Below, piece after piece: positions 5,696 through 41,816 of a stretch of DNA of 54,784 nucleotides. Below the pieces are notes generated by a model. It made no database searches and was not told where the DNA came from. It saw nothing but the letters and a program-made list of their open reading frames with translations. The stretch comes from a virus. Made by a program: the position numbers and the translations under genes. The stretch spans positions 1-54,784 of the IMG/VR virus record IMGVR_UViG_3300048928_000674; one strand, written 5' to 3'. Position 1 is the stretch's first letter, and each line of letters begins with the position of its first letter.

Positions 5696-5880
5696 TCTTT
5701 CACCTCGATGGCAACGTCATCATGGATCCACTCGATACCGAGCAGATCGTCCTCAGTGATCTGGTCCTCCCTGGTGTCGCTCATACTCACCAGGTCCTGA
5801 ACTTCATCATCCGGCACGTTCTCCATGACCTTCCGGAAGTTCACGACCGCCTTCCCGGTCAAGATGATTGTTTTGCCCAC
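5692..5880 (-). CDS. Small acidic phage protein of unknown function
   Basis: The 62-residue product starts at GTG 5880 with AAGGA six bases upstream. It reads MGKTIILTGKAVVNFRKVME, then a very acidic half (DDEVQDLVSMSDTREDQITE). No family is recognised. It is a member of the leftward operon, coupled to the truncated signal-peptide fragment downstream. Confidence 0.65.
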   Translation of the reverse strand: MGKTIILTGKAVVNFRKVMENVPDDEVQDLVSMSDTREDQITEDDLLGIEWIHDDVAIEVKE

Positions 5881-5961
5881 GGTCGTTCCTTGGCCGCCAT
5901 ATCGCGGCAGTGAATAGAGGGGAGAGGGGTTACAGCGGGGTGGGGTACAAATGTGCTCCAG

Positions 5962-6993
5962 TCAGGATTGCCAGATTTTCAGCTCAGTCGCGCCGCTGCA
6001 AGCATCGCAGGGTCGATCAGTCGGTTGTTCAATCTTGCAGGGCTGGCACGACCAGGTAGGAACGCTCGGCTCTGCGCTGGCGGATAGGGCGGCGTCTATG
6101 CTCGATCCCCAGTCGCGCAGCAACTGTTCAGTAGGCATGACGCACCCATTGCAATGGTCGGCTATCTCACGCAGCAGCAAATCCCACTTGGCCAGCTTGG
6201 CGCGCAGGTCGTCAATGTGCTTGAAATCCGCTGCGACTTGGGCTTCATGCTCGGCACACGCGCTCTTGCATTCAGCGAGCGCTTCCCGCAGCCGCTCGAC
6301 CTCTGCGCTCGCATTGAACTCATTACGCCGCGCCTCTTGCAGGTCCAGGCGCAGGGCGTTGGCATCCCCTATATGGACCGGATCGCCAATGGTTCGCCTA
6401 TCGATGAAATCGGCAATGTCGGCAAGGTATCCGGTAGCGATTGACGCCTGACCATTGGAACCTGCTACAAGCCGACCGACGAACGCCTTGATATCTCCTA
6501 GTGCGTTCTTCGCATGCTTATGGTTTAGGGCGTTGGTGTCAGCACGCGACCTCTGGCGCTCAACCTCGCCAGGATCGGCGTGGGTGTAGAGCGGCCCGAG
6601 CTTGGCAATTTCATCAAGGCATGCGCGCCATCCATCTGCGTAGCCCTGATCCCAGTCGTGGCCCATGCTCAGTTTGGCCTTGCAGGCCGGCAGCACCGCG
6701 GGCTCGCCTGGGTGCTGTTCTACTTCGCTAGTGAGTGGTCCGAACGGAATCATTGGCAACCCGGTCGCCGCCGCATCCCTTTCTGCCTCTTCTTTGGTCC
6801 ACCAGAAGGCAGTACCAACCATCCAGGCTATGGGCTCGGGGTGGGGCTGCGGGGCTGGATGATCGAGGAGGGCTCGCATGCGTCGGGAGAAATCGAAGAT
6901 CTGCGCTTTGGCGAAGCGTGCGCATGCGGCTTCAATATCCTCGCGCGGCACGCTGACCATCTCGGTGTTGCTGGATCGGTTTTCTGTTGGCAT
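5962..6993 (-). CDS. Phage protein with coiled coil and C-terminal zinc-ribbon motif
   Basis: The 343-residue protein (MPTENRSSN start at 6993, with GAGG nine bases upstream) has an N-terminal EPIAWMVGTAFWWTKEEAER segment of a kind common in phage early proteins. A charged helical stretch follows (AEVERLREALAECKSACAEH). The C-terminus has four cysteines (WSCQPCKIEQPTDRPCDACS) that probably bind zinc. A Met six codons upstream (7011) lacks a ribosome site. The function is unknown. It is in the leftward operon, divergent from the HNH gene at 7112. Confidence 0.75.
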   Translation of the reverse strand: MPTENRSSNTEMVSVPREDIEAACARFAKAQIFDFSRRMRALLDHPAPQPHPEPIAWMVGTAFWWTKEEAERDAAATGLPMIPFGPLTSEVEQHPGEPAVLPACKAKLSMGHDWDQGYADGWRACLDEIAKLGPLYTHADPGEVERQRSRADTNALNHKHAKNALGDIKAFVGRLVAGSNGQASIATGYLADIADFIDRRTIGDPVHIGDANALRLDLQEARRNEFNASAEVERLREALAECKSACAEHEAQVAADFKHIDDLRAKLAKWDLLLREIADHCNGCVMPTEQLLRDWGSSIDAALSASAEPSVPTWSCQPCKIEQPTDRPCDACSGATELKIWQS

Positions 6994-7111
6994 GGGGATA
7001 CCTCGAGCCATATTTTGGCAGTGGATGGAGAAGCGGGTCTGTACGAATGGAAGGATTGCTGCTAGTGCGTGATGGCAATATGATTCCTGCTTTTGCGCTC
7101 AGAGGTGACTG

Positions 7112-8305
7112 ATGAGTAAGTACATGCCCCTGGCCGATTTTCTTCGGTCCCAGACTGTTAACTCCGTTGAGCTGACCTTTGCGCAAATTGATGAGCTAGT
7201 GGGCGGTCTGCCACCGGTCGCGAGAAATCACAACGCTTGGTGGGCAAATTCAAGGACTGATGATTCACACACCTGGGCCCATCTTTGGATCGAAGCTGGC
7301 TGGGAACGTAAGTGCCTTGACCTGAGTGCAGAGGTTGTCGTATTCGAGCGGCATTCACCCGAGCAAGAAACTTCGCGCTTCTGGTGGGTCAACCATAAGC
7401 AGACTTACCAAGCCGAACTTGAAGGGGGTTACATCTGGTCACCCACAAAAAATAAAAATGGCGCTCGAAACCAGACCTACATCAACCTGACGTTGGTTAG
7501 AACCGGTGACGTAGTTATTTCGTACGCTGGGGGGCAGATTCGGGCTATCGGTGTTGCGACTTCACTTTATACCGAACAGGCGAAGCCGGAAGCTTTTGGT
7601 CAAGCCGGGCTGAACTGGTCGGATACGGGATGGCTAGTTCCTATCGAGTGGACCGAGTTGGACAAGGCTGTTTCACCTAAGGACCACATTACTGCTATCA
7701 CAAGCCTCTTACCCGCGAAAAACTCCCCTTTACAAGAAAATGGCAACGGCAATCAGAGATGTTACCTCGCTAGTATCTCGCCCGAACTTGGCTCTCTCGT
7801 TCTCCGCCTATCCAATAGTGCTGGGAGCGCCATTCTCGAGCGGGTTCATGAGCTGGAGGACCAGGTGAGAGCGGACGAAGCCGAACGTGAAATCCTGTTG
7901 AATCAGGAACTGGCTTCTACAGAGCGGGAGCAGTTGGTCCGATCACGTGTCGGCCAGGGAACATTCCGCCTTCAGGTGCTGGAGCGTGAGAAGTCGTGCC
8001 GTCTGACCGGAGTTTCCGATAAGCGCTTCCTGATCGCTAGCCACATCAAGCCTTGGAAGGATTGCTCGAATGCAGAGCGATTGGATGGGAGCAATGGTTT
8101 GATGTTGGCCCCTCACGTGGACAAGCTCTTCGACCGTGGCTGGATAACTTTCCAGGACAACGGGGATTTGTTGGTTGCCGACGCTGCTAAGGAAATCGTG
8201 TCTGCCTGGGGGCTGACATCTAGCTTGAATGTCGGTAGCTTCACACTGGAGCAGCGAAGCTACCTGAGCCACCACCGCTCAGAAGTTTATAAGGGCAGGG
8301 TGTAG
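7112..8305 (+). CDS. Three-part HNH endonuclease with EVE-like domain, candidate modification-dependent restriction enzyme
   Basis: The 397-residue protein appears to have three parts. Residues 5-75 (KYMPLADFLRSQ ... AHLWIEAGW) resemble a small DUF7662-type domain. Residues 88-195 (FWWVNHKQTYQAE ... GDVVISYAGGQIRAIGV) look like an EVE/PUA-fold domain that reads modified bases. Residues 279-356 are an HNH_2-type nuclease with His311 (ASHIKPW), Asn328 and His335 (LAPHVDKLFD). Such combinations are known in restriction systems that attack modified DNA; that role is inferred. It has its own ribosome site (GAGG) and runs against the leftward operon. It is less GC-rich than its neighbours, which suggests defence cargo. 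Confidence 0.78.
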   Translation: MSKYMPLADFLRSQTVNSVELTFAQIDELVGGLPPVARNHNAWWANSRTDDSHTWAHLWIEAGWERKCLDLSAEVVVFERHSPEQETSRFWWVNHKQTYQAELEGGYIWSPTKNKNGARNQTYINLTLVRTGDVVISYAGGQIRAIGVATSLYTEQAKPEAFGQAGLNWSDTGWLVPIEWTELDKAVSPKDHITAITSLLPAKNSPLQENGNGNQRCYLASISPELGSLVLRLSNSAGSAILERVHELEDQVRADEAEREILLNQELASTEREQLVRSRVGQGTFRLQVLEREKSCRLTGVSDKRFLIASHIKPWKDCSNAERLDGSNGLMLAPHVDKLFDRGWITFQDNGDLLVADAAKEIVSAWGLTSSLNVGSFTLEQRSYLSHHRSEVYKGRV

Positions 8306-8364
8306 GAAAACGAATTGCCGGCACGCATCCACCTGGGCGGCCTGAAAGTGTAGTTGGAATGTGG

Positions 8365-9315
8365 CTATTCGCAGAGGCCGTAGGCAGAAGAGCATTTCTG
8401 TTTGCTGTCGGTGCGCGCTATCAGGTCGACCATGTCGAACTGGCGTCCGCCGCGGGATGTGTTAGCCCAGTCCACCATGCGGTCAATGCCATGGGTTTCG
8501 GCGCTGACCTTATCGTCGGATCGGACGGTGGGGTCAGTGACTGTGGCAAAAAACGTGGCCGCACCACGCTTGCTGGCGATGCTCACTAGGCGTTCCCACT
8601 CGCGCACTCTGTCCACTTCTTCCGGCCACCTGGAGGCGATCTCGCGGAGCTCATCCTTCGCGCAGTTGACGCATGGCATGCACCCAACACGGTTGCAGCC
8701 TTGGAGGTATAGCGGGTTTGGCTTGATGCCTGCGGCTCGGTGCGCCTCGAACACCGCATCCACAGGCCATTTAAGAATGGGGCGGTAGTTAAACAGGCCA
8801 CCGCCGACCTCGTCGCACTCAGGGAGGTAGCGGCGATTCAGTGACTCATCAGCCCGAACACCCTGCCACGAGAGCACCAGGTTTTCCCCAGTCATCAACG
8901 GCATGAACATGTCCTCGATGATCGGGTTTCGCTTAAGCTCATCTGTGCAGAAGCGGGCTTTAGTGCTGGGGAAGCGTCCCTTCCAGAGGCACATGTCGAG
9001 GAACGGGTTGCCAGTGGGATGCAGCACCTCCAGGGCGGCCAGCACTACTGCCTCGGGCACTCCATTTTCGCGCCACTTCGTCTCAATGAACTTGCGTTTC
9101 CCAGCAATCTGCCTGGCAAAGTCGGCCTTTACCCAGCGGATCGGCACCCCGACCGCCTCGGCCAGGTAGTGCACGTAGTCATAGGTGGCCGGGTGTTCGT
9201 GCCCGGTGTCAGCGAAAACGGCACTGAGGTTGGGCACCTCCAGCTCGCGGGCAACCAGCAGGGTGGCCGTACTGTCTTTGCCGCCGCTCATGCTGACGAT
9301 GTTGTATTCGGCCAT
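8365..9315 (-). CDS. PAPS reductase/ATP pyrophosphatase-like phage protein
   Basis: The 316-residue protein starts MAEYNIVSMSGGKDSTATLL at 9315 with AAGGA seven bases upstream. SGGKDS is the PP-loop of the adenine nucleotide alpha-hydrolase family. Downstream are FADTGHEHPATYDYV and a cysteine cluster (GCNRVGCMPCVNC) that may hold an iron-sulfur cluster. Phages often carry such proteins; DndC, which works in DNA phosphorothioation, has the same core but is longer. Whether this one acts on DNA, tRNA or sulfur metabolism cannot be told. It lies in the leftward operon, convergent with the HNH gene. Confidence 0.83.
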   Translation of the reverse strand: MAEYNIVSMSGGKDSTATLLVARELEVPNLSAVFADTGHEHPATYDYVHYLAEAVGVPIRWVKADFARQIAGKRKFIETKWRENGVPEAVVLAALEVLHPTGNPFLDMCLWKGRFPSTKARFCTDELKRNPIIEDMFMPLMTGENLVLSWQGVRADESLNRRYLPECDEVGGGLFNYRPILKWPVDAVFEAHRAAGIKPNPLYLQGCNRVGCMPCVNCAKDELREIASRWPEEVDRVREWERLVSIASKRGAATFFATVTDPTVRSDDKVSAETHGIDRMVDWANTSRGGRQFDMVDLIARTDSKQKCSSAYGLCE

Positions 9316-9417
9316 CGTGTGGTCCTTGCGTGCAGGCGCCGCCCTCGCCGGGCTGGCGTTGATATATGGTTTTGGGTTATGAGATAGGTTCAGATAGAGC
9401 TCTGTGGAGGGCTTGAA

Positions 9418-9627
9418 ATGACAGTTCGTGCGAAGCCAATTTTTAAGGTCAAGGAATACGCAGAAGGGCAGCCATGGATCTGCGTCGAGTACTGGGACAA
9501 TGAGCCAGGCATGCCGATGGGTACGTTCGGATTTGACCTTGCTCCGGAGACAACCCTCCAAAAGGCGCAGGAAGTGGCCAAATTCATGAATGACAACCTT
9601 GAGCAGTTCTCCTTTACTAAGTTGTGA
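9418..9627 (+). CDS. Small protein of unknown function, opposite strand to the operon
   Basis: The 69-residue product starts MTVRAKPIFKVKEYAEGQPW with GGAGGG eight bases before the ATG. It is compact and hydrophilic (YWDNEPGMPMGTFGFDLAPE) with a C-terminal helix. No family is recognised. It lies divergently just upstream of the PAPS-reductase-like gene, so it must have its own promoter. Confidence 0.6.
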   Translation: MTVRAKPIFKVKEYAEGQPWICVEYWDNEPGMPMGTFGFDLAPETTLQKAQEVAKFMNDNLEQFSFTKL

Positions 9628-9690
9628 ATTCTGTCCTCGCGGGGGAGGCGTTATCGTTGAATAGGGGAAGGCGCTGGCGGGCAGCTCGGG

Positions 9691-10254
9691 TTAGGCGGCT
9701 TTGCGTTGCTGAAGGATTTGCTGGCGCGCAGCTTCAAGCTCGCTTGCCATGATCTCCGTGGCGCCTTCGACCTGGTCGCCGTCATCGCTGAGCTTGAATC
9801 CGAGATGCAGGTAAACGGTGCCCTCCAGCTCGAAGAACACGCCGCCGCTGAGCCAGATCGTTCCCCAGTCGAGGCCAACGGCCTTCCATGTGTCATCGGC
9901 GCTGATCCGTGCCGGGCAGTGCTCGAGCCAAAGAGCCTTGAGTCGGTCATGCTCAGCCTTGATTGCAGGCCTTGCCTCCTTGGCGGTGCCCTTGGGAATT
10001 TTCGCGGCGGTTCGCAGCGATCTGTAACCGTGGTCATCCGGCCGACACCAATGCACATCCAGATCCCGGCTGGCGCTGATCTTCACGCCGCCGACGTACT
10101 TGTCGTTTCCGCTGTACATCGGGGAGCCAGGCCCGCCAAAGACCTCGGCGAGCCTCTCGCGCTTGAGGTGGAAGGCCTTGAGTTTCTCATCCCAAGCGCG
10201 CACCGCTTCGATCACGGCCGGGCAGGTGGTTTTGTAGTGGTAGCTGGTGCTCAT
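9691..10254 (-). CDS. Phage protein of unknown function
   Basis: The 187-residue protein starts MSTSYHYKTTCPAVIEAVRA at 10254, with GGAG six bases upstream; a Met four codons earlier (10266) is also possible. It has helical ends (ASELEAARQQILQQRKAA) and a beta-rich centre (WGTIWLSGGVFFELEGTVYL). No family is recognised. It belongs to the leftward early operon. Confidence 0.7.
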   Translation of the reverse strand: MSTSYHYKTTCPAVIEAVRAWDEKLKAFHLKRERLAEVFGGPGSPMYSGNDKYVGGVKISASRDLDVHWCRPDDHGYRSLRTAAKIPKGTAKEARPAIKAEHDRLKALWLEHCPARISADDTWKAVGLDWGTIWLSGGVFFELEGTVYLHLGFKLSDDGDQVEGATEIMASELEAARQQILQQRKAA

Positions 10255-10364
10255 GGCTTTCTCCATGCATGCGCCGCCCTCCGTGGCCGGATGCGGCATG
10301 GTGGTAAAGTGGATTGAGATCAGGTATGAAGTCGGCTCGATTCCCATGCCAACAAGGAAGGAAA

Positions 10365-10571
10365 ATGACCGATCTACGTATCATTGAGGAAAGCAATGCT
10401 CTTCTTGCCGTAATGAGCGCCGCCTCTGCAAAGCTGAAGGAGTTCTACGCTGAGCACGACAAGAATGAGGAGGGTTTCCGTGAGAAATCCCGTGAGCTTC
10501 AGCGCGCAGTGTTCCAGGCCCATTCGAAGTGGCTCAAATACGCGGAGCAGAACTTCGAAAACTGGGGCTAA
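10365..10571 (+). CDS. Small helical protein of unknown function, opposite strand to the operon
   Basis: The 68-residue product starts MTDLRIIEESNALLAVMSAA, with AAGGAAGG just upstream. It is almost entirely charged helix (AKLKEFYAEHDKNEEGFREK). Its last 38 bases overlap the end of the convergent gene 10534-10908. No family is recognised. It is the second short rightward gene in the otherwise leftward operon. Confidence 0.6.
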   Translation: MTDLRIIEESNALLAVMSAASAKLKEFYAEHDKNEEGFREKSRELQRAVFQAHSKWLKYAEQNFENWG

Positions 10572-10908
10572 CAACCTCATCGCCTGGATCCCGCCTAAGC
10601 TCAGCAGCGCTTGCCGCTTCGAACTGACGCGCTAGTTTTGGCGAGATGTAAAAAGCTGGCGCGTCAGGTCGTTCAAGACGGCGCGCCCGCTCTTCAGCAT
10701 CCTGAGCGATCCACGATAAGGCGAGGTCCTGCCAGAGCTCCTGCACTTGGTCATAGCCGTGACGCTCGATCTCGGCAGCCATGGCGGCCTTGATCCCTTC
10801 CGGCATGTTGAAGAACACCTTCTCTATGCCCAGCTTCTTCGCCTGGGCCTTCTGCCGGTTCCGGTAATCCGCAGAGTGCTTCGCGACACCCGTCTTTCCC
10901 TCGGCCAT
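10534..10908 (-). CDS. Small phage protein, possible ribbon-helix-helix type
   Basis: The 124-residue product begins MAEGKTGVAKHSADYRNRQK. A segment follows, LGIEKVFFNMPEGIKAAMAA, then a helix, that could form a strand-helix-helix DNA-binding fold like other small phage regulators. The C-terminal 40 residues look disordered. The DNA-binding idea is inference from the pattern. It is in the leftward operon, downstream of 10990-11535. Confidence 0.65.
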   Translation of the reverse strand: MAEGKTGVAKHSADYRNRQKAQAKKLGIEKVFFNMPEGIKAAMAAEIERHGYDQVQELWQDLALSWIAQDAEERARRLERPDAPAFYISPKLARQFEAASAAELRRDPGDEVVSPSFRSSAPRI

Positions 10909-10989
10909 GGCCGATACCTCCCAAGCCGCTGGGCGGCAGATTGATGTGCTGCTGGCGCCGGCCGTGCCGGACGCGCGCGGTGATGCGTT

Positions 10990-11535
10990 TCATGCTGTGT
11001 TGGCTTCTCGCTTTTCGGCGGTAGTCGGGAAGTTGATCTCGAACTCACGCAGCAGCCGCTTTAGCTGCTTGTCGGAGATCTTCATCAGCCGCACCACCTG
11101 ATATCTGGTCATGCAGAGGTTGCGGTAGGCGATGATCTGATCCGCTTTGTCCCTGTCGGCAGCCGGGTCGCTGAGCTTCTTGCCCAGGTTGCCCTTGCCG
11201 CGCCTTGGATCTGGCTTGAATTTGAATTGGCCGTCCAAGGCGTAACGGCTCAGGCAGCTCAATGACAGGCCGGTGTATGCAGCGGCTTCGGCATAAGTCA
11301 TGCGCTTCGCCAACTCGCGCACTTCTTCAATACGCATCTGGCGTCTTTCAGTGCGGGTTTTCAGCGGAGCGGCTTGCGCTCGTGCCGGCTCAAGATCACG
11401 GTGCGCGCGCCGCGGCACATAGTCTTTGGTCGGCAGGCTTTGCACCTGGCCGCCGTCGAGAAAGAAGCTGTCGATGCTCGCATTGAGCTGGGCTAGCACT
11501 GCACTGCGCTGGTCTTGATTTGGGCTGCCGATCAT
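10990..11535 (-). CDS. Phage protein with helix-turn-helix segments
   Basis: The 181-residue product has a central helix-turn-helix-like segment (MTYAEAAAYTGLSLSCLSRY) and a second one near the C-terminus (MTRYQVVRLMKISDKQLKRL), with basic linkers (PDPRRGKGNLGKKL). It is likely to bind DNA, but no target or family can be named. Its start overlaps the stop of 11532-11801 by four bases. Confidence 0.72.
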   Translation of the reverse strand: MIGSPNQDQRSAVLAQLNASIDSFFLDGGQVQSLPTKDYVPRRAHRDLEPARAQAAPLKTRTERRQMRIEEVRELAKRMTYAEAAAYTGLSLSCLSRYALDGQFKFKPDPRRGKGNLGKKLSDPAADRDKADQIIAYRNLCMTRYQVVRLMKISDKQLKRLLREFEINFPTTAEKREANTA

Positions 11536-11801
11536 TGAAGTCCGCCTCCCTTGCTCGCCGCACCTGCCTCCATCGCGTTAACAAAGCGCATGACGGCCCG
11601 ATAGGTGAAGGCATAGCCCTGAACGGCGCCAGTGGAGATCTCCACCACATCCCATTTTCCGTCCTTGCCCGATGCCTGGTACCGCGGTGCGGGCTGGTTG
11701 ACCTTGGCGTGCGCCTCGGCCCTCACTGACTTACTGCGCTCGAGCAAGGCCGCGAGCACGGCAAGCTTCTGCTCGAAAGCAGGGTGCATTGCTGTCTGCA
11801 T
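11532..11801 (-). CDS. Small phage protein of unknown function
   Basis: The 89-residue product starts MQTAMHPAFEQKLAVLAALL, with GAGGA about ten bases upstream of ATG 11801. A helical N-terminus precedes a segment GKWDVVEISTGAVQGYAFTY. No family is recognised. It is coupled to 10990-11535 by a four-base overlap and lies 20 bases downstream of the LuxR-type gene. Confidence 0.7.
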   Translation of the reverse strand: MQTAMHPAFEQKLAVLAALLERSKSVRAEAHAKVNQPAPRYQASGKDGKWDVVEISTGAVQGYAFTYRAVMRFVNAMEAGAASKGGGLQ

Positions 11802-11820
11802 GGGGTGATCCTCGGTAGGG

Positions 11821-12204
11821 TCAGGCGTGGTACTCGAAGGCCTCGGCCTTGCGAACGATTCGAACTTGGGCGGTGCGGCGCTCCGGCGCGCGGCGATCGC
11901 GGCGCATGGGGTCGCTGTCGTCGATCACCGCATGCATGGTGATGAGCGCGGCTAGGGCGATGCAGATCGGGCTGATGATCTGTTGGCGCATGGCCTTGGT
12001 GACCGCCTCGATGCGTCGGCCGGCTTCCAGCTTGAACAGGGCAGCCTCGATGCGGTTGGCCACGGTGCCCGGGCTTACCGCCATCTGGCGGGCGATTTCT
12101 TTGGTGGTGAGGCCCTGGGCCACCCACAGCAATGCTTCGAGCTCACGGGGAGCCAGCGCCTTGCCGAGCTGGCCAATCCATGACCCGCAAGTGATCGTTT
12201 CCAT
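11821..12204 (-). CDS. LuxR-type helix-turn-helix regulator with C-terminal hydrophobic helix
   Basis: The 127-residue product starts METITCGSWIGQLGKALAPR, with GAGGA seven bases before ATG 12204. Residues 18-65 are a LuxR/GerE-type DNA-binding domain (ELEALLWVAQGLTTKEIARQ, MAVSPGTVANRIEAA). A hydrophobic helix (ISPICIALAALITMHAVI) follows and then a basic tail. There is no receiver or ligand domain. It probably controls phage genes; the inverted repeats directly upstream are candidate targets. The frame is open upstream to 12336, but that part has no ribosome site. Confidence 0.78.
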   Translation of the reverse strand: METITCGSWIGQLGKALAPRELEALLWVAQGLTTKEIARQMAVSPGTVANRIEAALFKLEAGRRIEAVTKAMRQQIISPICIALAALITMHAVIDDSDPMRRDRRAPERRTAQVRIVRKAEAFEYHA

Positions 12205-12506
12205 GAAGTGTCCTCGGTGGGCTGCATTGGTCGTGACGCTCGCTGCCGCAAACCTCCCGGACCAGGGGAGGGCGAACGTCACGACCGATGCAGTCGAAAT
12301 AAGGTTAACGGTGGTGTTAATAGAGTTAACACTCATGGTGATGAGCCTTAAGTCTGCATCGGGGTGTGATCTGGGGGATCGTCCAGGCGAGGCCAGCTAG
12401 GCCCTGTAATCATTCCCCATTTACTCGGGGCGGCCTGCCATTCAGTTTCAGATCACACTCCGATGCAGCCTGGTGATGGGGAACCAGCTAGATCGGGCAG
12501 TTTTCG
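12205..12506. repeat. Gene-free segment with two long inverted repeats and a palindrome
   Basis: No gene is seen here. Arms CTGCATTGGTCGTGACG (12222-12238) and its near-complement at 12277-12293 form one inverted repeat, with a CCTCCC/GGGAGG hairpin nested inside. Arms at 12353-12372 and 12449-12468 form a second with 19 of 20 bases matched. All four arms begin or end with the same CTGCAT-type motif. Between them GTGTTAATAGAGTTAACAC (12313-12331) is a palindrome with 7-bp arms. This looks like a regulator-binding or RNA-structured region upstream of the LuxR-type gene. Confidence 0.6.
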
Positions 12507-12731
12507 TCAGGCTGACGTGGAGCAGGCTTCGAAGGCGGCGCGCTCCAGTTCGAGGCATTGCTCGTAGTGAGCCATCGCGATCGGCATGTGATAGCTATCC
12601 AGAGGCCATTTACTGACCTTGCAGCCTTGACCTGCCGGGCAGTGAAAGACGAACAGCTCGCCTTCTTCCTTGGCCATCTCCAGACTCACCTGGGCACCGC
12701 TATCGAAGCGGTCTTGAATAATCGTGGTCAT
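12507..12731 (-). CDS. Small phage protein of unknown function
   Basis: The 74-residue product begins MTTIIQDRFDSGAQVSLEMA and has two cysteines in a short FHCPAGQGCKVSKWP segment. No family is recognised. Its ATG overlaps the stop of the 42-codon frame upstream by four bases. It is the first clear gene downstream of the leftward promoter. Confidence 0.7.
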   Translation of the reverse strand: MTTIIQDRFDSGAQVSLEMAKEEGELFVFHCPAGQGCKVSKWPLDSYHMPIAMAHYEQCLELERAAFEACSTSA

Positions 12732-12856
12732 CTCGAATTGCTCCAGTGGACTCCCCCTGATGCGCCCCGCTTGAGGCGCACCGGGGAATCGTCTGGCGTC
12801 ACCGCCTCAGATGGCAGCTCTGCGCTCATTGCGTTGGCCTTGGGCTTCCCTCGCAT
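12728..12856 (-). CDS. Possible 42-residue early protein
   Basis: This short frame reads MRGKPKANAMSAELPSEAVT and then a basic stretch (SPVRLKRGASGGVHW). Its TGA overlaps the ATG of 12507-12731, the same coupling used throughout this operon, which is the main support. The ribosome site is poor. A 29-codon alternative frame (12807-12896) is Arg-rich (QRNERRAAI) and overlaps it. One of the two could occupy the place of lambda N, but there is no sequence match to prove that. Confidence 0.4.
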   Translation of the reverse strand: MRGKPKANAMSAELPSEAVTPDDSPVRLKRGASGGVHWSNSR

Positions 12857-13167
12857 CGCCTTCAATCTGAATACGGCGGTGGTCGTTGGGGATCATGTTG
12901 CTCCGCGCTTGAGTGCAGCCCTTCGGCCGGCTGAGTAGGGCACGTATGCGCGGATTGCCGACCCGTTTTGTCGGCTGGGCTTAATGCTTCATTGGCAGGT
13001 TCCTCCTATGGTTTTTGATCCGCTCCACGCTCATCGCCGGGTTTCCCCACCACTGCCTGCTGCAGCTACTGGCTACGCATCAGGTGGCTCGCATGGTTTG
13101 GCGTCCTCCCATGGGGGAGTCCGGCAGCTATCCAGAGGCTGCGTGGTCGACGACTTAGCTTGTCCCG

Positions 13168-13223
13168 ACCCAGGTAATGGCCTGGGTGCGTCGAGGTGGT
13201 CACGTCTGGTTGTGTAAAGAGCG
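13168..13223 (-). promoter_or_regulatory. nut-like site: boxA plus stem-loop in the leftward leader
   Basis: On the minus strand CGCTCTTTACACA (13211-13223) closely matches the boxA element of lambda nut sites and ribosomal leaders. About 25 bases further downstream ACCCAGG and CCTGGGT (13168-13187) form a 7-bp stem with a 6-base loop, in the place of boxB. It lies 50 bases downstream of pL. Function as an antitermination site is inferred. The roughly 300 bases between it and the first leftward genes hold only a strong AGGAGG in front of a three-codon frame. Confidence 0.55.
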
Positions 13224-13269
13224 GCGGCTGCCGTAGCTGCCTGCCGGTGTCGATCCGGCGACGAGGTCA

Positions 13270-13311
13270 AAGTTAACCGGCGGTAAATTTCACGTCAATA
13301 CCGGCGGTTAA
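13270..13311 (-). promoter_or_regulatory. Leftward early promoter pL with operators oL1 and oL2
   Basis: On the minus strand TTGACG (13293-13298) and TAACTT (13270-13275) are spaced 17 bases, a good sigma-70 promoter. Two 15-bp sites of the consensus TTAACCGGCGGTTAA lie on it: 13273-13287 in the spacer and 13297-13311 over the -35. Their centres are 24 bases apart. The same motif occurs three times beside cI and cro. Repression by CI is therefore expected. Confidence 0.8.
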
Positions 13312-13348
13312 TTATTTTTTCGATCGGGCGCGATAAGATCGTGGAAGG

Positions 13349-13364
13349 CTGTACGCATATACAG
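13349..13364 (+). promoter_or_regulatory. LexA (SOS) box upstream of the DUF1654 gene
   Basis: CTGTACGCATATACAG fits the LexA operator form CTG-N10-CAG and is nearly palindromic. It lies 16 bases before the ATG of 13380-13709, overlapping its likely promoter. A second such box is at 47035-47050. The gene should be induced by DNA damage through host LexA. Confidence 0.75.
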
Positions 13365-13379
13365 TATTGGAGGTAGGAA

Positions 13380-13709
13380 ATGGGAGCGGCACAAGGATTT
13401 GCTATGTCAGCGCCTCGCGAGGAACTGACAGGCATGGAGAAACTGGGGCTGAGAGTCTCTGCAATGATCAATTCCCCGCTTGCCCAGTTCGGGAGGAAGG
13501 TTCTGATCCATCAGCTGGACACGGACAGTGATCAGGATTGGGGGGCGATCATGGAGCTGCTGTCAGAGACTGACGGCCTGGACATGACGTTCTGTGACGA
13601 CGGATCGGTGATCCTGCAATGGGATGCGCCGACGGATGACGATCGGATGATCGAAAGGGATGTGGAGCTGGGGGTGGTTAGGCAGGAAGAGGAGGAGGCG
13701 CCTTTCTGA
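13380..13709 (+). CDS. DUF1654 protein, SOS-regulated
   Basis: The 109-residue product contains MEKLGLRVSAMINSPLAQFG and, further on, DWGAIMELLSETDGLDM and DDGSVILQWDAP. This pattern is the DUF1654 family, found almost only in Pseudomonas. Function is unknown. It has a strong ribosome site (GGAGG) and a LexA box just upstream. It stands alone between the leftward promoter and the GHKL-Shedu gene, on the opposite strand from both, and converges on the latter. Confidence 0.83.
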   Translation: MGAAQGFAMSAPREELTGMEKLGLRVSAMINSPLAQFGRKVLIHQLDTDSDQDWGAIMELLSETDGLDMTFCDDGSVILQWDAPTDDDRMIERDVELGVVRQEEEEAPF

Positions 13710-13713
13710 CTGT

Positions 13714-13736
13714 GATGGGCCTATAGAAGGCCCATC
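13714..13736. terminator. Hairpin between convergent genes
   Basis: GATGGGCC and GGCCCATC form an 8-bp stem with a 7-base loop between the stops of 13380-13709 and 13749-15764. There is no long T-run, so termination strength is uncertain. The position suggests a two-way terminator. Confidence 0.55.
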
Positions 13737-13748
13737 GCCTGAATCGGG

Positions 13749-15764
13749 CTAAGCTCCCGCCGGCTCAGCGACAGGGCTGCGCGTGGTGAGATCTGCCAAT
13801 AACTCTTCTTTGGTAGCTGATGAAAGGTCAGCTCTCTGAGTTTTCAGGTTTTCTAATAAGTAATCATTAGTGAGTTCAAATTCATCAAAAATTCTGGGCC
13901 AGGTTTTGATATAAGTCTTGATCTTGGGTGTAACGGTCACTAATCCCGGCTCACCATGAAGCTTTGAGGTATCTAGGCGATTATGGATTCCAAATGCCTC
14001 ACTTGAAATACTTCGACCAACGAGAAGTAGCTCGAATCGAGTTAAATCGCTGTTAAAAGCAGGGTACCTACTCAAAATTGAAGCATACGTGTCCAGTTGT
14101 TGTAGATGTTTGTCATTCAAAGCGACACCGGGGCGCTTGATCTCTACTATGACGCAACGGAAGTATTTTCTGCCGCTTGGGTCGATCTGAGGCTGTCTTC
14201 GGACAAGTAGCAGATCTACCTGCTTTTTCGCTCCTTCAATTTCGACGCCATCAGCCAAGTCGCCCACATCTACTCCCTCAATCTCTTTAATGGTTGAGCG
14301 AAGATTTCGGGTGGTTTCCGTGAAGCTAGCCTCTTCAGCTCCGAGGATTTCGTACGAAGCCCCAAAGAGCCATGTATTACTTTCGATTACGGCCTGAAGG
14401 TCAGGGGTCTCTCGAACTGTAGCATAATGAGTGTTCATGATTTCCTTGATTTGGGAAATCGCTAGTTCTCGATTTTGCAGTATCTCAATGGTGTTTATGA
14501 TGTTGTCGAGCTTGGTTTTTTTGAGCTGTTCAGCAAGTTTTGTCATGGCGGTGGCATCTAAATTTAGAATGCTTTCTAAGATTTCGAATATGCCACTATT
14601 TTCGTTTGAAACGGAAAGTCTGTCTAATAATCTTATGATTAGTCGACGTTGTTTTTTATTATTTCCAACTAGTAAACTTGGCTCGCGAACCAATACAGCC
14701 TTCACGATGTCTTTCACATGTGACAAGCGCCATTGTGACTCTTGAATATCCAGATTGGGATATTCTGGGAAGTCGCCGTCCTCTTCAAATTGGGATACGT
14801 GCTTTTCAGCTTGTTTGATGAGGAACTCAGCATACATGCGCTTGGCGAATACGCCAATTTCACTCTCGAGCTCCTTGAACTGATTGCTTACAAGAAATGC
14901 CCCAATTGGTTCGTGAAGAGAGTCGCTGTCGTCGCTGTATCGGTCAAATAACGCGGATCTCACATAAATTGATGAGTAATATCCACGCTTGCGGTTCAGG
15001 CTACTATGAAATTTGTAAAGAATTTTGCTATTGGTGTTGATTAGATGGATGAATGACTTTTCTGAACCAGGCTTCTCTTTCCAATGAAGTAGTTTAACCT
15101 CAAATGAGTTGCCTTTGGAATTCACCGTCATTTCATATAGGTCATGATCTTGTGGTGTAACAGGGGCTCCATTCACGCGCAAAGATTTATGTGGCATTAA
15201 GGCGAGGTGTGCGCCAAAAATCCGCCGAAATTCAGAAATGATAAAATTTTGACTAGGAAAATTGCTCCTAAAGTCTGAAAGGACGACGCAGGTTCCGGAA
15301 ATACTCCCATCAAGAAAAGAGTGCTGGTCAACATCCGGGATAGTGCGGCCTTCGATGTCGCTAAGATTGCTGCTTACCACTCTAATTATTGCGTTGTCGC
15401 TCTCGTATCTTGTGTACCATGTAGCTGTATTGCAGATTTTATGAAACGCAAGTCGGCCTCGCCCGTGAGATCCATGCGTGTCATAAGAATCCTTTTTTAA
15501 GGAGTCGTTAAATCGGCGAAAGTTGTCTTGCGGTGATTTGAAATTGATTCCTTTCCCGTTGTCTAGAATAGTTAGTAGCTCGGTCCCGTCGATATCATTG
15601 CTTTCAATTAAGATATTGACAAATGAGGCGCCTGCGTCGAACCCATTCCATACTAGCTCGGCTAGTGCTTGCACTGGCTCTACTGTTTTGAAGTGCTTTA
15701 AAATACCGCTGTGAGTAATCGTATTTGAGCCGGAGAAGTCCTGGGATACAAAGTTGATTGACAA
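13749..15764 (-). CDS. GHKL ATPase fused to a Shedu-like (DUF4263-type) nuclease
   Basis: The 671-residue protein has an N-terminal GHKL ATPase domain: N-box ELVWNGFDAG (E36, N40, D43), DNGKG (68-72) and a glycine lid HGSHGRG (97-103). A long middle region follows. Residues 456-600 form a PD-(D/E)XK nuclease of the Shedu type: D517 in QVDLLLV, E541-x-K543 in VIVEIKRP and the downstream HLQQLDTYASIL. It starts at a TTG with GGGAGA seven bases upstream, 28 bases after cI and on the same strand. It is far less GC-rich than the phage. An antiphage role is inferred from the nuclease family and from its position, which matches lambda rexAB. Confidence 0.8.
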   Translation of the reverse strand: MSINFVSQDFSGSNTITHSGILKHFKTVEPVQALAELVWNGFDAGASFVNILIESNDIDGTELLTILDNGKGINFKSPQDNFRRFNDSLKKDSYDTHGSHGRGRLAFHKICNTATWYTRYESDNAIIRVVSSNLSDIEGRTIPDVDQHSFLDGSISGTCVVLSDFRSNFPSQNFIISEFRRIFGAHLALMPHKSLRVNGAPVTPQDHDLYEMTVNSKGNSFEVKLLHWKEKPGSEKSFIHLINTNSKILYKFHSSLNRKRGYYSSIYVRSALFDRYSDDSDSLHEPIGAFLVSNQFKELESEIGVFAKRMYAEFLIKQAEKHVSQFEEDGDFPEYPNLDIQESQWRLSHVKDIVKAVLVREPSLLVGNNKKQRRLIIRLLDRLSVSNENSGIFEILESILNLDATAMTKLAEQLKKTKLDNIINTIEILQNRELAISQIKEIMNTHYATVRETPDLQAVIESNTWLFGASYEILGAEEASFTETTRNLRSTIKEIEGVDVGDLADGVEIEGAKKQVDLLLVRRQPQIDPSGRKYFRCVIVEIKRPGVALNDKHLQQLDTYASILSRYPAFNSDLTRFELLLVGRSISSEAFGIHNRLDTSKLHGEPGLVTVTPKIKTYIKTWPRIFDEFELTNDYLLENLKTQRADLSSATKEELLADLTTRSPVAEPAGA

Positions 15765-15792
15765 AATAAATCTCCCTATAAAATTTGTCGAT

Positions 15793-16680
15793 TTAAACTT
15801 TTCTGGCGTTCCATACGAGCAGTACTTTTGCGTGTATTGTTACGTCATCGAAACGGGCGGGTTGCTTGTCGTAGATCTTGTTGTCCGAAATCAACCAGAG
15901 GTGCTCTTCGTCTTTACGTTGCAGTCGCTTGATTAACAGATCTCCGTGCCAGGTGAGAACATATACTCCTTCGCCCTGGTATTCATTGACCCCTCGATCA
16001 ACGATTACGGGATCTTTATCGTTAATCGTCCCCTCCATGCTCTGTCCCCATCCTGTGATCATCGACAGAGCCTGGGCTGAGGTGTACGTCACACCCTTCT
16101 CGCGCAGCACCTCTTCCCGGATGACCACATTCCTTATGACTTCGCTGTACTCAGCTGGGACCTGGCCGTGGCCCATAGCTGCCCGGATGTCGTACTGAGG
16201 TATGGAAATATCGCCATGGCCTGGCGTGACCATTATCGGGGCATGGGCAGGTTGAGCCGCTAAAGCTGGCGCTTCCGCAAGGCTATCAGCGACTGCCTTG
16301 GCGATTTTGTCCTGGGCGGTGGCGTCCAATGACTTGCCCCCATGCTTGCGCAGCATTTCCAAGACCTTTTCCGCTGCACTACTGCCGGAGTTGCCTCCGC
16401 CCTTTACCTGTGCGCGTTGCATTTGTGCGAGCTCAGCGGCCAGCCGTGGGCTGAACCGGTCCACCGGCTCTTGCAGAAGCCTGGACAGCACCACTGCGAA
16501 TTTCGCATTTAGGGGGTTGGTGCCGTTCAGGTACATGGCAACGCCGGCCGGCGAGATATCCGCAGCCTCGGCGACCTTTGCCTGCGTAAGGCCAAGAGCA
16601 TTTTTCTTCTGAGTGAACAGTCTTTTGGCTGCATCGCACTCGGCCTTCAGTTCGGGGGATAGATCTTTCTTTTTCGTCAT
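15793..16680 (-). CDS. cI: Lambda CI-like repressor with S24 self-cleavage domain
   Basis: The 295-residue protein begins MTKKKDLSPELKAECDAAKR. Its helix-turn-helix region (KKNALGLTQAKVAEAADISP, then GVAMYLNGTNPLNAKFAVVL) aligns well with lambda CI. The C-terminal half is an S24/LexA-type protease domain with the active Ser in GWGQSMEGTI and a Lys in HGDLLIKRLQ, so RecA-triggered cleavage is expected. It maintains lysogeny by binding the operators at 16690-16753 and 13273-13311. It is divergent from cro. The downstream GHKL-Shedu gene probably shares its transcript. Confidence 0.93.
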   Translation of the reverse strand: MTKKKDLSPELKAECDAAKRLFTQKKNALGLTQAKVAEAADISPAGVAMYLNGTNPLNAKFAVVLSRLLQEPVDRFSPRLAAELAQMQRAQVKGGGNSGSSAAEKVLEMLRKHGGKSLDATAQDKIAKAVADSLAEAPALAAQPAHAPIMVTPGHGDISIPQYDIRAAMGHGQVPAEYSEVIRNVVIREEVLREKGVTYTSAQALSMITGWGQSMEGTINDKDPVIVDRGVNEYQGEGVYVLTWHGDLLIKRLQRKDEEHLWLISDNKIYDKQPARFDDVTIHAKVLLVWNARKV

Positions 16681-16784: not shown

Positions 16785-17009
16785 ATGAACCGAACACTGC
16801 TGCCTGAGCTTGTTGAGCGAATCGGCCAGGCCGCCGTCGCCAAGGGGCTTGATGTGAGCGCCCCTGCCATCGCCAAAGCGATGAAGGCTGGCCGGGTGAT
16901 TTTCGTAATTGAGAACGAAGACGGAACGATGAGCGGGGAGGAGCTACGTCCGTTTCCGAGCCGTCAGGCTTCCTGCGGGCTGAGGCCTGACGAGAAGGAT
17001 TATGCGTGA
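16785..17009 (+). CDS. cro: Lambda Cro-like repressor
   Basis: The 74-residue protein includes ERIGQAAVAKGLDVSAPAIA, then KAMKAGRVIFVIENEDGTMS and EELRPFPS. This lines up along almost its whole length with lambda Cro (RFGQTKTAKDLGV, NKAIHAGRKIFL, EEVKPFPS). Cro blocks pRM and damps early transcription at the onset of lytic growth. It is the first gene of the rightward operon, transcribed from pR. Confidence 0.88.
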   Translation: MNRTLLPELVERIGQAAVAKGLDVSAPAIAKAMKAGRVIFVIENEDGTMSGEELRPFPSRQASCGLRPDEKDYA

Positions 17010-34141: not shown

Positions 34142-34224
34142 TGGCCCGAACGCTGGACGTGATTCTGGAGGCAGGCATGCACAGCGAGCGCATCGCGGAA
34201 ACGCTGAGGGGGGAGGATGGCTGA
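33791..34224 (+). CDS. Tail assembly chaperone, long -1 frameshift form
   Basis: T TTT TTC at 34048-34054 is a classic slippery heptamer. A -1 shift there leaves frame 0 and continues as HDAGITEYEDLIAVVYDLAW, ending RIAETLRGEDG at 34224. The long form joins the chaperone head to a second domain, as in P2 E/E' and lambda G/GT. The position just before the tape measure gene is the usual one. The feature is shown as one span and includes the shift. Confidence 0.8.
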
Positions 34225-36127
34225 CAAGTTTCAGCTCAAGGCGCTGATCACCGGCGTCGACAAGCTGTCGCCAACGCTTGCCGGCGCGCGCAAGAACATT
34301 GCCGCGTTCCGCAAGAATCTGGAAAGCACCGGCCTTGGCAAGATCGGCTGGAGCGATATCGTCACCGGCGGGGCCATGGCGGCCCCGTTCATTGCCGGCG
34401 CCAAGGCGGCCATCGACTTTGAGTCGCAGATGGCCGACGTGCGCAAGGTGGTGAACTTCGACACGCCAACCCAGTTCAAGGAAATGGGTGATGACATTGG
34501 CCGAATGTCTGAACGATTGCCCATGGCCGCGACGGACATTGCCAAGATCGTCGCGGCCGGTGGGCAGTCGGGCATTGCCCGTGATGAGTTGCTGGGCTTC
34601 GCCGAAGCGGCGGTGAAGATGGGCATTGCCTTCGATCAGACCGCCGATGAATCCGGCGACATGATGGCGAAGTGGCGCACCGCGTTTCGCATGAATCAGG
34701 CCGAGGTGGTTGGCCTGGCTGACCGTATCAACTACCTCGGCAACACCGGCCCGGCCAACACCAAGCAGATTTCCGCCATCGTCACCGAAGTCGGCGCGCT
34801 GGGTGAAGTCGCGGGTATGTCGTCGGCGCAGGTCGCGGCCATTGGTGCCACCATGGCCGGGGTGGGCGTCAAGCAGGACGTGGCCGCCACGGGCATCAAG
34901 AACTTCATGTTGGCCATGACCAAGGGCACGGCGGCCACCAAAGCGCAGGCACAGGCCTACAAGTCGTTGCGGCTGGATTCCAAGACGGTGGCCGAGAGCA
35001 TGCAGAAGGATGCCCAAGGCACCATGCTGGACTTGCTCAAGCGTATCGGTCAGGTCGATGCGGCGAAGCGCCCGGCGCTGTTGGCCGAGCTGTTCGGTAC
35101 CGAGTCCATCGGGGCCATCACGCCGCTGCTGACCAACCTGGAGCTGCTGCGCGGTAACCTGGACAAGGTCAGCGATGCACAACAGTTCGCCGGTTCCATG
35201 GAGCAGGAATATGCGTCCCGGGCGGCGACTACCGCGAACAACCTGCAGCTGCTGCGCAACAGCGTGGCGGGTGTGGCCCGGGAAATCGGCAACGCCTTGC
35301 TGCCGGGGATCAACGCGGTGGTGGATCAACTGCGCCCGTGGATCTCTCAGGCGGCGCAAATGGTGCGTGATAACCCGCAGATGGTGCGCGGCATCGTCAT
35401 TGCCGGTGCGGCCTTCACGGCGCTGCGTGCGGCGGTGTTTGCCGCCACAGTGGCCACGCGCCTGCTGGGCGTGGCCTTTGCCGCCACACCGGTCGGCCTA
35501 ATCGCGGTTGGTATCGCGGCAGCGGCCGGCCTGATCGTTGCCAACTGGGAGAAGCTCGCACCGTTCTTCTCGGCCCTGTGGGAGCTGATCAAGGCTTACA
35601 GCGTTCCGTTCCTGGACTTCATGAAACAGCTGGTCGACTGGTCGCCGTTGGGCATGATCACCCGTAACTGGGAGCCTATCGTGGCCTTCTTCAAGGGGCT
35701 TTGGGATCGGGTCAGCCCATACCTGCAGCCGATCATCAAGCTGTTTGGCGAAGGTGACGGGGAAAGCGTGGCCGGCCGGGTCCAAAAGATGGCGGACGAG
35801 CAGAAGCGCCGTAACGCCGGGGCGGGTGGTGGCACGGGCGACATGCTCATGGCCGGCGCCGGTATCTCTGCCCGCAACCGGCAGGAATACAACAACCAGC
35901 AATTCGGCATCAATCCCGGCGCGCTGCTGCAGGCGCCTGGCCGTTTGCCGGCGGCGGGCTCTCTGTTGCGGCAGTCGGCGGGGGCTAACCAGACCCAGCT
36001 GGAAGGTGAGCTGCGAGTGAAGTTCGACAACGCACCGCCCGGCATGCGGGTTGAGTCTACCCAAAGTAATCAGCCCGGGCTGCTGGTTCGTTCCAACGTG
36101 GGGCAACGCTCCTTGGGAGGTGGCTAG
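34217..36127 (+). CDS. Tail tape measure protein
   Basis: The 636-residue protein begins MADKFQLKALITGVDKLSPT and has a TP901-type core (FESQMADVRKVVNFDTPTQF, GIARDELLGFAEAAVKMGI). Two hydrophobic stretches (GIVIAGAAFTALRAAVFAAT, TPVGLIAVGIAAAAGLIVAN) follow. It sets tail length and helps DNA exit; the size predicts a fairly short tail, near 90-100 nm. It overlaps the chaperone end. Confidence 0.93.
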   Translation: MADKFQLKALITGVDKLSPTLAGARKNIAAFRKNLESTGLGKIGWSDIVTGGAMAAPFIAGAKAAIDFESQMADVRKVVNFDTPTQFKEMGDDIGRMSERLPMAATDIAKIVAAGGQSGIARDELLGFAEAAVKMGIAFDQTADESGDMMAKWRTAFRMNQAEVVGLADRINYLGNTGPANTKQISAIVTEVGALGEVAGMSSAQVAAIGATMAGVGVKQDVAATGIKNFMLAMTKGTAATKAQAQAYKSLRLDSKTVAESMQKDAQGTMLDLLKRIGQVDAAKRPALLAELFGTESIGAITPLLTNLELLRGNLDKVSDAQQFAGSMEQEYASRAATTANNLQLLRNSVAGVAREIGNALLPGINAVVDQLRPWISQAAQMVRDNPQMVRGIVIAGAAFTALRAAVFAATVATRLLGVAFAATPVGLIAVGIAAAAGLIVANWEKLAPFFSALWELIKAYSVPFLDFMKQLVDWSPLGMITRNWEPIVAFFKGLWDRVSPYLQPIIKLFGEGDGESVAGRVQKMADEQKRRNAGAGGGTGDMLMAGAGISARNRQEYNNQQFGINPGALLQAPGRLPAAGSLLRQSAGANQTQLEGELRVKFDNAPPGMRVESTQSNQPGLLVRSNVGQRSLGGG

Positions 36128-37386
36128 TGAGTGAATGGCGTGACATGCGCCGCGAGGCCTCGTTTCGCGGCGTGCCATTCTGGGTCGACAGCGACAGTGT
36201 GCCGGTGGGCCGGCGCACCCAGTTGCATGAATACCCTAAGCGCGATCAGCCGCTGGTCGAGGACATGGGGCGGCGCACGCGTGAATATCGGTTTACCGGG
36301 TTCATCATCGGTGACGACTTCATCAGTCAACGTGACCGCCTGCTGGTGGCCCTGGACACGGCCGGGCCGGGCGAACTGGTACACCCTTGGTTTGGCCGCG
36401 TTACGGTAACGGCAGGGGATTGTGAAGTCTCCCATGCCCGTGATGAGCTGGGCATGGTACGGCTCAATCTGTCGTTCATTGACGGCATGCTGATGTTCCC
36501 GGTGCAGCGGGTTAACACCCGTAAGCAACTGGCGGCGCATGTGCCCAGCCTGCTGGAGTCGATCAAGGCGCGGTTCAATGCCTTGATGGACAAGGTGAAC
36601 TGGGCCAGGCAGCAGGTCAACGCGGTGCGACGAGCCATCGCCAGTGCCTATGCCTTCGCCATCAACTTCCTCAAGCCGCTGACATCCTTGGCGGCCGACC
36701 TTGGTGCCCTGGTGCAGTCGGTCATCAACGCACCCGGGGCATTGATGGCCAGCCTGCTGAGCGACGTGGCCAGCATTGAACGCTGGTTCAGCGGCTACGG
36801 TTCCAGCGGTTCGCTGCATTCGTCCAAGTCCAAGGCCGAAGCGATTGTGGCCCTGTCGCAGGAACGGCCGGCGACCAACGACCCCGATATCGCCATCATC
36901 CAGCAAGCGGTCATTGGCCTGGTGCAGGATGCCGCGCTGTTGGACTTGCTGCTGGATGTGGCGGAGGTGCCGGTGGCCGGGGTGCAGACGGTCGAGCAGC
37001 CGGCCGCGCTCAGTGTCCAGCTGGAACAAGGCGGCAGTACGGTAGAGGCGGGTAGCGTGATGGAGCCTACGGTTCCTGTCGCAGACGACGTGCTGGCCGC
37101 CAGAGACGCTATCAGCGAGGCGATGTGGGTCATTGCAGGGGAAAGCCTGCCGGATCACTTCGGCGTGCTTAGCGACGCGCGTTTGGCCATGGACAGGCAC
37201 CTGACCGAAGTGGCGCGCAGCGGCGTATGGCTTCGGCCCTATCAGCCACGGGTCACGGTGTCTTCGCTGGTGTTGGCCCACCGGCTGTACGGCGATGCCC
37301 TGCGCGGCGCCGAAATCGTTTCGCGCAATGCGATTCGCCACCCGGGCTTCGTGCCCGCCGTAGAACTGCAAATCGCCAAGAGTTAA
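36127..37386 (+). CDS. DNA circularization/tail protein, Mu gpN-like
   Basis: The 419-residue protein starts at GTG 36127, overlapping the tape measure stop. Its N-terminus (REASFRGVPFWVDSDSVPVG, HEYPKRDQPLVEDMGRRTRE) is the DNA circularization N-terminal domain of Mu gpN-like baseplate hub proteins. Confidence 0.9.
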   Translation: MSEWRDMRREASFRGVPFWVDSDSVPVGRRTQLHEYPKRDQPLVEDMGRRTREYRFTGFIIGDDFISQRDRLLVALDTAGPGELVHPWFGRVTVTAGDCEVSHARDELGMVRLNLSFIDGMLMFPVQRVNTRKQLAAHVPSLLESIKARFNALMDKVNWARQQVNAVRRAIASAYAFAINFLKPLTSLAADLGALVQSVINAPGALMASLLSDVASIERWFSGYGSSGSLHSSKSKAEAIVALSQERPATNDPDIAIIQQAVIGLVQDAALLDLLLDVAEVPVAGVQTVEQPAALSVQLEQGGSTVEAGSVMEPTVPVADDVLAARDAISEAMWVIAGESLPDHFGVLSDARLAMDRHLTEVARSGVWLRPYQPRVTVSSLVLAHRLYGDALRGAEIVSRNAIRHPGFVPAVELQIAKS

Positions 37387-37389
37387 CCC

Positions 37390-38499
37390 ATGGAACCAGA
37401 CAATACCGTCACCCTGAGCGTTGGCGGGCACGACTACGCCGGTTGGAAAGACGTGCGGATCAGTGCCGGCCTGGAGCGGCAAGCCCGGGATTTCAGTCTG
37501 GCGATCACCTGGAAGTGGCCCGGCGGCAGTGATGTGCCGCTGCGGGTGCGGCAGGGTGAAGTCGTCGAAGTACGCATTGGCGATGACCTGCTGCTGACCG
37601 GCTACGTGTTCAGCACGCCGATTCGCTATGACAGCCAGAACATCACCCTGAGCATTGTGGGCCGGTCGAAAACGGCCGACCTGGTGGATTGCGCGGCGAT
37701 CAACTCCCCCGGCCAGTGGCGCGGCCAGAGCGTGCAAAAGATTGTCGAGGCGCTGGCTGGTGAGTACGGCGTCAAGGTGATCAACGAGAGCCCGGGCACA
37801 CTGGGCCTGGACGATCACACCATCGAGCCGGGAGAAACCGCCTTTGAGAGTATCGACCGTCTGCTGACCCTTTCCCGGCTGTTCAGCACCGACGACGGCA
37901 ACGGCCGTCTGGTGATTGCCAGCCCGGGCACGGCAGGGCGCGCGGTCGACGCGCTGGAGCTGGGCAAGAACATTCTGGAAGCGGATACCGCGCTGGACTT
38001 TTCCAACGTGTTCTCCGAGTACATCAGCCGAGGCCAGCGCAGCGGTACGGATGGATCGTTTGGCGTGGAAGCCAGCGAGGTGGAGGCCAGCGTGGCGGAT
38101 GACCGGGTGGCTCGCCGCCGGGTCAAGGTGATCAACCAGTCAGGGCAGATGACCACCACCTTGGCCCGGGCGCGCGTCGAGTGGGAGCGGGCCAACGCCA
38201 TCAGTCGGGCCTTGACGGTCAACTACGTGGTGCAGGGGTGGCGGCAGAGCAGTGGCGAGCTGTGGCGGCACAACATGATTGTGCGGGTCATTGACCCGCT
38301 GATTGGCTTGGACCGCGACATGCTGATCAGCCAGATCAGTTACGACCTGGATGGCAGCGGCACCCTGACCAAAATGACCGTGGCCCCGCCTGATGGCTTC
38401 CTGCCTGAGCCCAACGACGCCTACGAGAGCCGCAAGCTCAAGAAGGGCAAGAAGACCGACAACTTTGAATACCTCATTCCTGCGGACTACAAGCCATGA
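37390..38499 (+). CDS. Baseplate hub protein, Mu gpP-like
   Basis: The 369-residue protein (TVTLSVGGHDYAGWKDVRIS, VRQGEVVEVRIGDDLLLTGY, WERANAISRALTVNYVVQGW) belongs to the Mu gpP/gpD-type hub family. It forms the tail hub with the spike protein encoded next. Stop and next start overlap. Confidence 0.92.
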   Translation: MEPDNTVTLSVGGHDYAGWKDVRISAGLERQARDFSLAITWKWPGGSDVPLRVRQGEVVEVRIGDDLLLTGYVFSTPIRYDSQNITLSIVGRSKTADLVDCAAINSPGQWRGQSVQKIVEALAGEYGVKVINESPGTLGLDDHTIEPGETAFESIDRLLTLSRLFSTDDGNGRLVIASPGTAGRAVDALELGKNILEADTALDFSNVFSEYISRGQRSGTDGSFGVEASEVEASVADDRVARRRVKVINQSGQMTTTLARARVEWERANAISRALTVNYVVQGWRQSSGELWRHNMIVRVIDPLIGLDRDMLISQISYDLDGSGTLTKMTVAPPDGFLPEPNDAYESRKLKKGKKTDNFEYLIPADYKP

Positions 38500-41056: not shown

Positions 41057-41057
41057 C

Positions 41058-41753: not shown

Positions 41754-41775
41754 CGGCTAACCACCCAACACCCAG

Positions 41776-41797: not shown

Positions 41798-41816
41798 ACG
41801 TCTGGAGAAACACAGC

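Follow-up and report, generated by a model that had tools for sequence, protein, structure and literature searches.

What does a large ATPase-nuclease do when its gene stands directly behind the repressor gene of a prophage, and is that place peculiar to one phage or shared by others? The window analysed is an entire IMG/VR virus record of 54,784 bases, from a temperate virus of Pseudomonas that carries such a gene.

The gene behind cI and its surroundings

The features on which the argument depends are as follows.

13749..15764, minus strand: gene for a GHKL ATPase joined to a PD-(D/E)XK (putatively Shedu-like) nuclease; TTG start, 671 aa
15772..15776, minus strand: Shine-Dalgarno-like GGGAG, 7 nt ahead of the TTG start
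15793..16680, minus strand: cI-type repressor with HTH and S24 peptidase domains (Pfam), the upstream partner of the slot
16785..17009, plus strand: cro-like regulator, divergent from cI (phrog_35, transcriptional repressor, E 2e-7)
13380..13709, plus strand: small convergent DUF1654/phrog_2707 gene, the distal boundary of the slot
13714..13736, no strand assigned: hairpin between the convergent GHKL-nuclease and DUF1654 genes

The stop codon of cI and the TTG of the GHKL-nuclease gene are separated by exactly 28 nt on the same strand, and the terminator scan called nothing between the two genes on that strand. The gene is thus directly downstream of cI, co-directional with it and with no called terminator between, which is a rex-like position. 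The earlier note had given this distance and orientation, together with a TTG start and low GC, and all are borne out (GC is 43.8% in the gene vs 58.4% over the window); the TTG and the GGGAG before it are common to near relatives. Two of its descriptions hold in part. The hairpin at the end of the gene is real (z -2.7), but it lacks a U-tract, lies equally at the end of the convergent DUF1654 gene and was passed over by the terminator scan. The control region and a P-like helicase loader fit the term 'lambda-like', but the term holds for the control region only, because the tail genes (34217-44450: tape measure, baseplate hub, Gpu-like, tail spike) look contractile-tailed and point to a contractile/Mu-type tail.

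Lambda RexAB and the RexABpp of P. putida prophage P1 are exclusion genes that stand behind a repressor gene and are expressed in the lysogen; RexABpp consists of two genes, has validated antiphage activity and follows a cI-like repressor at a distance of two genes (PMC12894663). The likeness of the window gene to these is positional: RexAB is a DNA-binding sensor with a membrane protein, whereas the window protein is an ATPase-nuclease. Comparison with PHROG returned phrog_6203 ('unknown function') over nearly the full length (E 4.7e-86). Elsewhere in the window, 8365-9561 on the minus strand carries a phosphoadenosine phosphosulfate reductase-like moron (phrog_424, E 9.6e-73).

The ATPase half

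15075..15764, minus strand: GHKL ATPase and transducer (S5-like) region, residues about 1-230; Pfam HATPase_c_3, invariant columns, MORC/MutL fold match

The GHKL ATPase proposed in the earlier note is found where it was placed, with DNGKG at residues 68-72 and HGSHGRG at 97-103. The full motif set comprises E36/N40/D43, D68/G70/G72, G98/G101/G103 and G157/T158, and Pfam matches the protein with HATPase_c_3 (E 4.5e-16). When solved structures were searched with the family profile, MutL/Mlh1 (E 9e-10) and MORC2 (E 2e-4) were recovered. The note had also asked for a structure prediction: an AlphaFold model (mean pLDDT 73.7) used as a Foldseek query placed MORC4, MORC2 and MORC3 of human and mouse first (E about 1e-11), with RIIA proteins as further fold-level matches. 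Among the best 50 matches listed per library for the whole model there was no Shedu nuclease, all being GHKL-type or unnamed. Motifs I-IV and the predicted fold together firmly support membership of the GHKL ATPase superfamily, MORC/MutL-like. A helical middle region joins this half to the nuclease.

The nuclease half

13815..14447, minus strand: PD-(D/E)XK nuclease domain, residues about 440-650, with D517, E541, K543 and Q556; invariant columns and hhalign to SduA domains

The active site described earlier, D517 with E541-x-K543, is present at those residues. The assignment of the domain to the Shedu/DUF4263 type is less simple: profile comparison favours it, while the family models do not match the window protein itself. 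The comparison set consisted of SduA domains collected from Pseudomonas genomes via Pfam PF14082, and hhalign of the window-family nuclease against them gave a probability of 86.5 (E 4.6e-6). None of 20 column shuffles exceeded 0.9%, and the reversed profile and Mrr each reached 0.2%. A Vibrio GHKL-nuclease, L192, itself matched by a Shedu HMM (E 4.3e-7), gave a probability of 95.7 (E 9e-9) in profile comparison, and BLASTP aligned L192 with the window protein at both ends (E 3e-5 and 2e-4). Against this, the window protein matches neither Pfam DUF4263/SduA_C nor the PADLOC SduA models and does not reach the Shedu cut-off; the PADLOC models match 14 of 40 family members weakly (best E 6.6e-5), the window protein not among them, and a search of solved structures with the nuclease profile recovered no Shedu structure, nor anything else. 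By its sequence, then, the window nuclease is too divergent for the Pfam and PADLOC Shedu models. Given that HSDR_N_2, another PD-(D/E)XK family, reaches a probability of 75, a Shedu-like domain is the favoured assignment by profile comparison and falls short of proof. A separate model of the nuclease domain gave weak restriction-type matches (MspJI, MUS81, McrBC) amid noise; these were set aside, with no confident PDB match.

Conservation and selection

In an alignment of 40 homologues of the window protein, E36, N40, D43, D68, G70, G72, G98, G101 and G103 of the ATPase and D517, E541, K543 and Q556 of the nuclease are invariant, T158, E461 and E477 are nearly so, and both active sites are kept in every member (40/40). 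Comparison of the window gene with two relatives about 93% identical gave dN/dS of 0.043 and 0.062. Given the (nearly) invariant catalytic residues and the low dN/dS, the reading frame is beyond chance, and a chance ORF or pseudogene is ruled out. Three chromosomal relatives (L029, L037, L047) have the frame broken within about the first third, possibly by decay or assembly error.

Relation to known proteins

The fusion of a GHKL ATPase with a nuclease is already known, from paraMORC3 (2008) and VcSduA (2025), and any novelty would lie in the slot. VcSduA, of the Vibrio cholerae WASA lineage, is antiphage; either E27A in the ATPase or K557A in the nuclease abolishes protection, the protein functions alone in E. 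coli, and its authors, who class it as Shedu type I-D, propose that the nuclease is under the control of the GHKL domain (PMC12137116). Like the window protein it has an N-terminal GHKL ATPase and a C-terminal DUF4263/PD-(D/E)XK nuclease in one chain. The ATPase Glu precedes the ExK Lys in both (E27/K557 in VcSduA, E36/K543 in the window protein), at a spacing of 530 in VcSduA, 507 in the window protein and 501-520 in the window family. VcSduA sits in VSP-II rather than in a cI operon, and the comparison made here is with its published residues; a search of Vibrio genomes for VcSduA itself found no protein with E27/K557. The Vibrio protein nearest to it in layout is L192 (E34, spacing 535), whose match to the window protein is weak. 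Vibrio loci L179-L191 hold longer GHKL proteins.

In the part of Iyer et al. (2008, PMC2292703) drawn on here, paraMORC3 is a GHKL, S5 and restriction-endonuclease-fold protein with an E-D-ExK signature; standalone members occur in proteobacteria, the standalone nuclease-bearing genes are without conserved neighbours, and that part mentions no prophage or cI-linked subclade. By its architecture and signature (E452 or E461, D517, E541-x-K543, with W465 and Q556 also conserved) the window protein would be a paraMORC3. With classical Shedu (SduA, PF14082) it shares a related nuclease domain, 'LQ..IE.N.WLFG', the D and ExK-P; classical SduA has no GHKL module, and the window nuclease lies below the family cut-off.

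The interval between cI and DUF1654

The DUF1654 protein, used as the single bait, retrieved 36 IMG/VR loci, near-duplicates included, and in all 36 a cI homologue lies on the opposite strand facing DUF1654 (E below 1e-110). The two genes lie between 65 bp, in four loci that are effectively empty, and 4,152 bp apart. The 65-bp intervals hold little besides a GC-rich hairpin, which stands at the same place in all four of them and in most of the filled slots; since empty and most filled loci keep it, the entry point of the cargo would seem to lie after the cI stop and before the hairpin. The ORF proximal to cI is on the cI strand in 28 of the 32 filled slots, as are 18,609 of the 19,970 aa of slot cargo. 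GC is lower in the slot than in its flanks in every filled locus (32/32; medians 46.5% vs 60.1%). Near-duplicate loci, among them L057/L058/L059, L072/L075/L076 and L081/L082, bring the number of independent fillings below 32. Named Pseudomonas phages likewise have small genes between cI and DUF1654. These loci strongly support the earlier proposal of a rexAB-like position, which is a recurrent cargo slot.

The fillings were named via PADLOC, Pfam and NCBIfam, and several are known or candidate defence systems:

L051, L060: IetAS (E 3e-100)
L084: RosmerTA RmrA (E 9e-100)
L056, L064: sce7725/7726 (sce7726/beta; beta/sce7725 E 4e-160)
L052 and similar loci: PDC-M53AB (PDC-M53A E 1e-153)
Four members: PDC-S42 (PADLOC candidate)
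L050: RelA/SpoT-domain protein matching PDC-S33
L080: DNA methylase and AAA ATPase
Further loci: HipA-like, DUF3037 and DUF1828 proteins

As a control, 79 flanking ORFs in the slot loci drew six weak PADLOC models (best E 1.7e-7), an imperfect control, since not every one of these ORFs need be a real gene. The GHKL-nuclease, where it fills the slot, stands alone between cI and DUF1654.

This distribution bears on the reading that the protein is an enzyme of phage DNA metabolism, for repair or recombination of the phage's own genome, which lies beside cI by chance. GHKL domains do occur in MutL and phage topoisomerases, and the RIIA fold matches would suit such a role. Nevertheless it is very improbable: first, an enzyme of this kind would be expected in an early lytic operon and not in the repressor operon; second, sister phages with an empty slot or with unrelated cargo do without the gene; and third, its low GC is that of other slot cargo.

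A clade that stays with the slot

A tree of 45 sequences places the window protein in a 14-member clade (support 99/97), and an S24 repressor lies upstream in 13 of the 14. The sole exception, L108 (G203, 5859-16668), is chromosomal and lies beside genes that read, by inspection only, as HsdM and HsdS of type I restriction-modification. Among relatives at most 46% identical no cI linkage was seen, and most of the distant homologues are in bacterial chromosomes, away from cI. A lack of cI at L005 was considered and rejected, as a more divergent S24 repressor lies upstream there with other ORFs between.

The neighbours of L108 raise the possibility that the protein assists restriction and depends on a methylase or helicase encoded elsewhere, and the part of Iyer et al. 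used here places paraMORC families in restriction-modification operons (PMC2292703). This scenario is unlikely, given that the gene is alone in the prophage slot, that standalone nuclease-bearing paraMORC3 proteins are reported in the same part of that work, and that VcSduA is sufficient by itself in E. coli (PMC12137116).

The window clade stands behind repressors whose N-terminal halves differ; found behind several different cI proteins, it stays with the slot and not with one repressor. This pairing is one of several points against a role in which the protein regulates or maintains the lysogenic switch of its own prophage and has at most a secondary part in exclusion. Such a role would account for the place in the cI operon, and an effect of lambda RexA on PRM, the repressor promoter, is discussed in PMC12894663. 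It is nonetheless decidedly unlikely: no DNA-binding regulator domain was found in the window protein, its nuclease site is intact under strong selection, and the empty slot of four sister prophages implies that the switch does not need the GHKL-nuclease.

Proposed function

It is suggested that the GHKL-nuclease is probably a superinfection-exclusion (antiphage) nuclease, expressed in the lysogen, gated by ATP-driven dimerisation and carried as cargo. In its favour are the conservation of both active sites, the low dN/dS, the MORC-like fold, the relation to SduA, the precedents of VcSduA and P1, the type I restriction-modification-like neighbours of L108 and a slot that holds known antiphage systems in sister prophages. 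The repressor promoter would give a weak transcript of cI and the gene together, and the TTG start may keep the dose low. ATP would bring two GHKL domains together, as in MutL, MORC and (by model) VcSduA, to form a clamp that closes on DNA; on engaging suitable DNA of an invading phage, this clamp could align the two C-terminal Shedu-like nucleases and the DNA would be cut. Upon induction and the loss of CI, expression should stop and replication of the phage's own DNA would be spared. The ATPase as sensor or clamp, as the earlier note had it, is consistent with the VcSduA mutants (PMC12137116). Placed in the repressor operon, a Shedu-like, ATP-gated nuclease would be expressed for as long as lysogeny lasts and should fall silent on induction; this may be a simple explanation of how a prophage can afford so dangerous an enzyme.

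The slot as a possible source of antiphage genes

Hotspots of prophage defence have been described in P2/P4 of E. coli and, between cI and integrase, in Vibrionaceae prophages (PMC9122126). These hotspots too have a fixed position in the prophage and changing antiviral contents, and one of them adjoins cI, but they belong to other phages and have boundaries other than cI and DUF1654. The Pseudomonas cI-DUF1654 interval is not among the prophage hotspots found in the literature, and no Pseudomonas hotspot linked to DUF1654 or placed 'downstream of cI' was found in open-access literature. On balance, the interval would seem to be a slot for antiviral cargo that is widespread among temperate phages of Pseudomonas and has not been described before, with the GHKL-nuclease clade as one long-term resident. 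As the fillings sit between the cI stop and the hairpin, transcription of each would start at the repressor promoter.

Several fillings have no such names as those given above:

L072:682-1572, L075:5163-6053, L076:816-1706, minus strand: single-gene filling of 297 aa, with no name among the family matches listed
L053:6370-7380, minus strand: other filling
L067:6360-8444, minus strand: other filling, a three-gene set
L081:4372-5281, minus strand: other filling

The 297-aa gene is a candidate antiphage gene. PADLOC gave no match at 1e-5 for the main ORF of either L053 or L067. If the slot is what is proposed here, the nameless fillings (L072/L075/L076, L053, L067, L081/L082) would be unrecognised antiphage systems, and the interval a precise address at which to seek new ones in Pseudomonas prophages. 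In several of the loci L077-L085 a small ORF (about 71-79 aa, 'SLTKPNQELRRDLQGLASDLKWSAVELMRIA') lies right after cI, ahead of the variable cargo, and is possibly a fixed part of the frame in that phage group.
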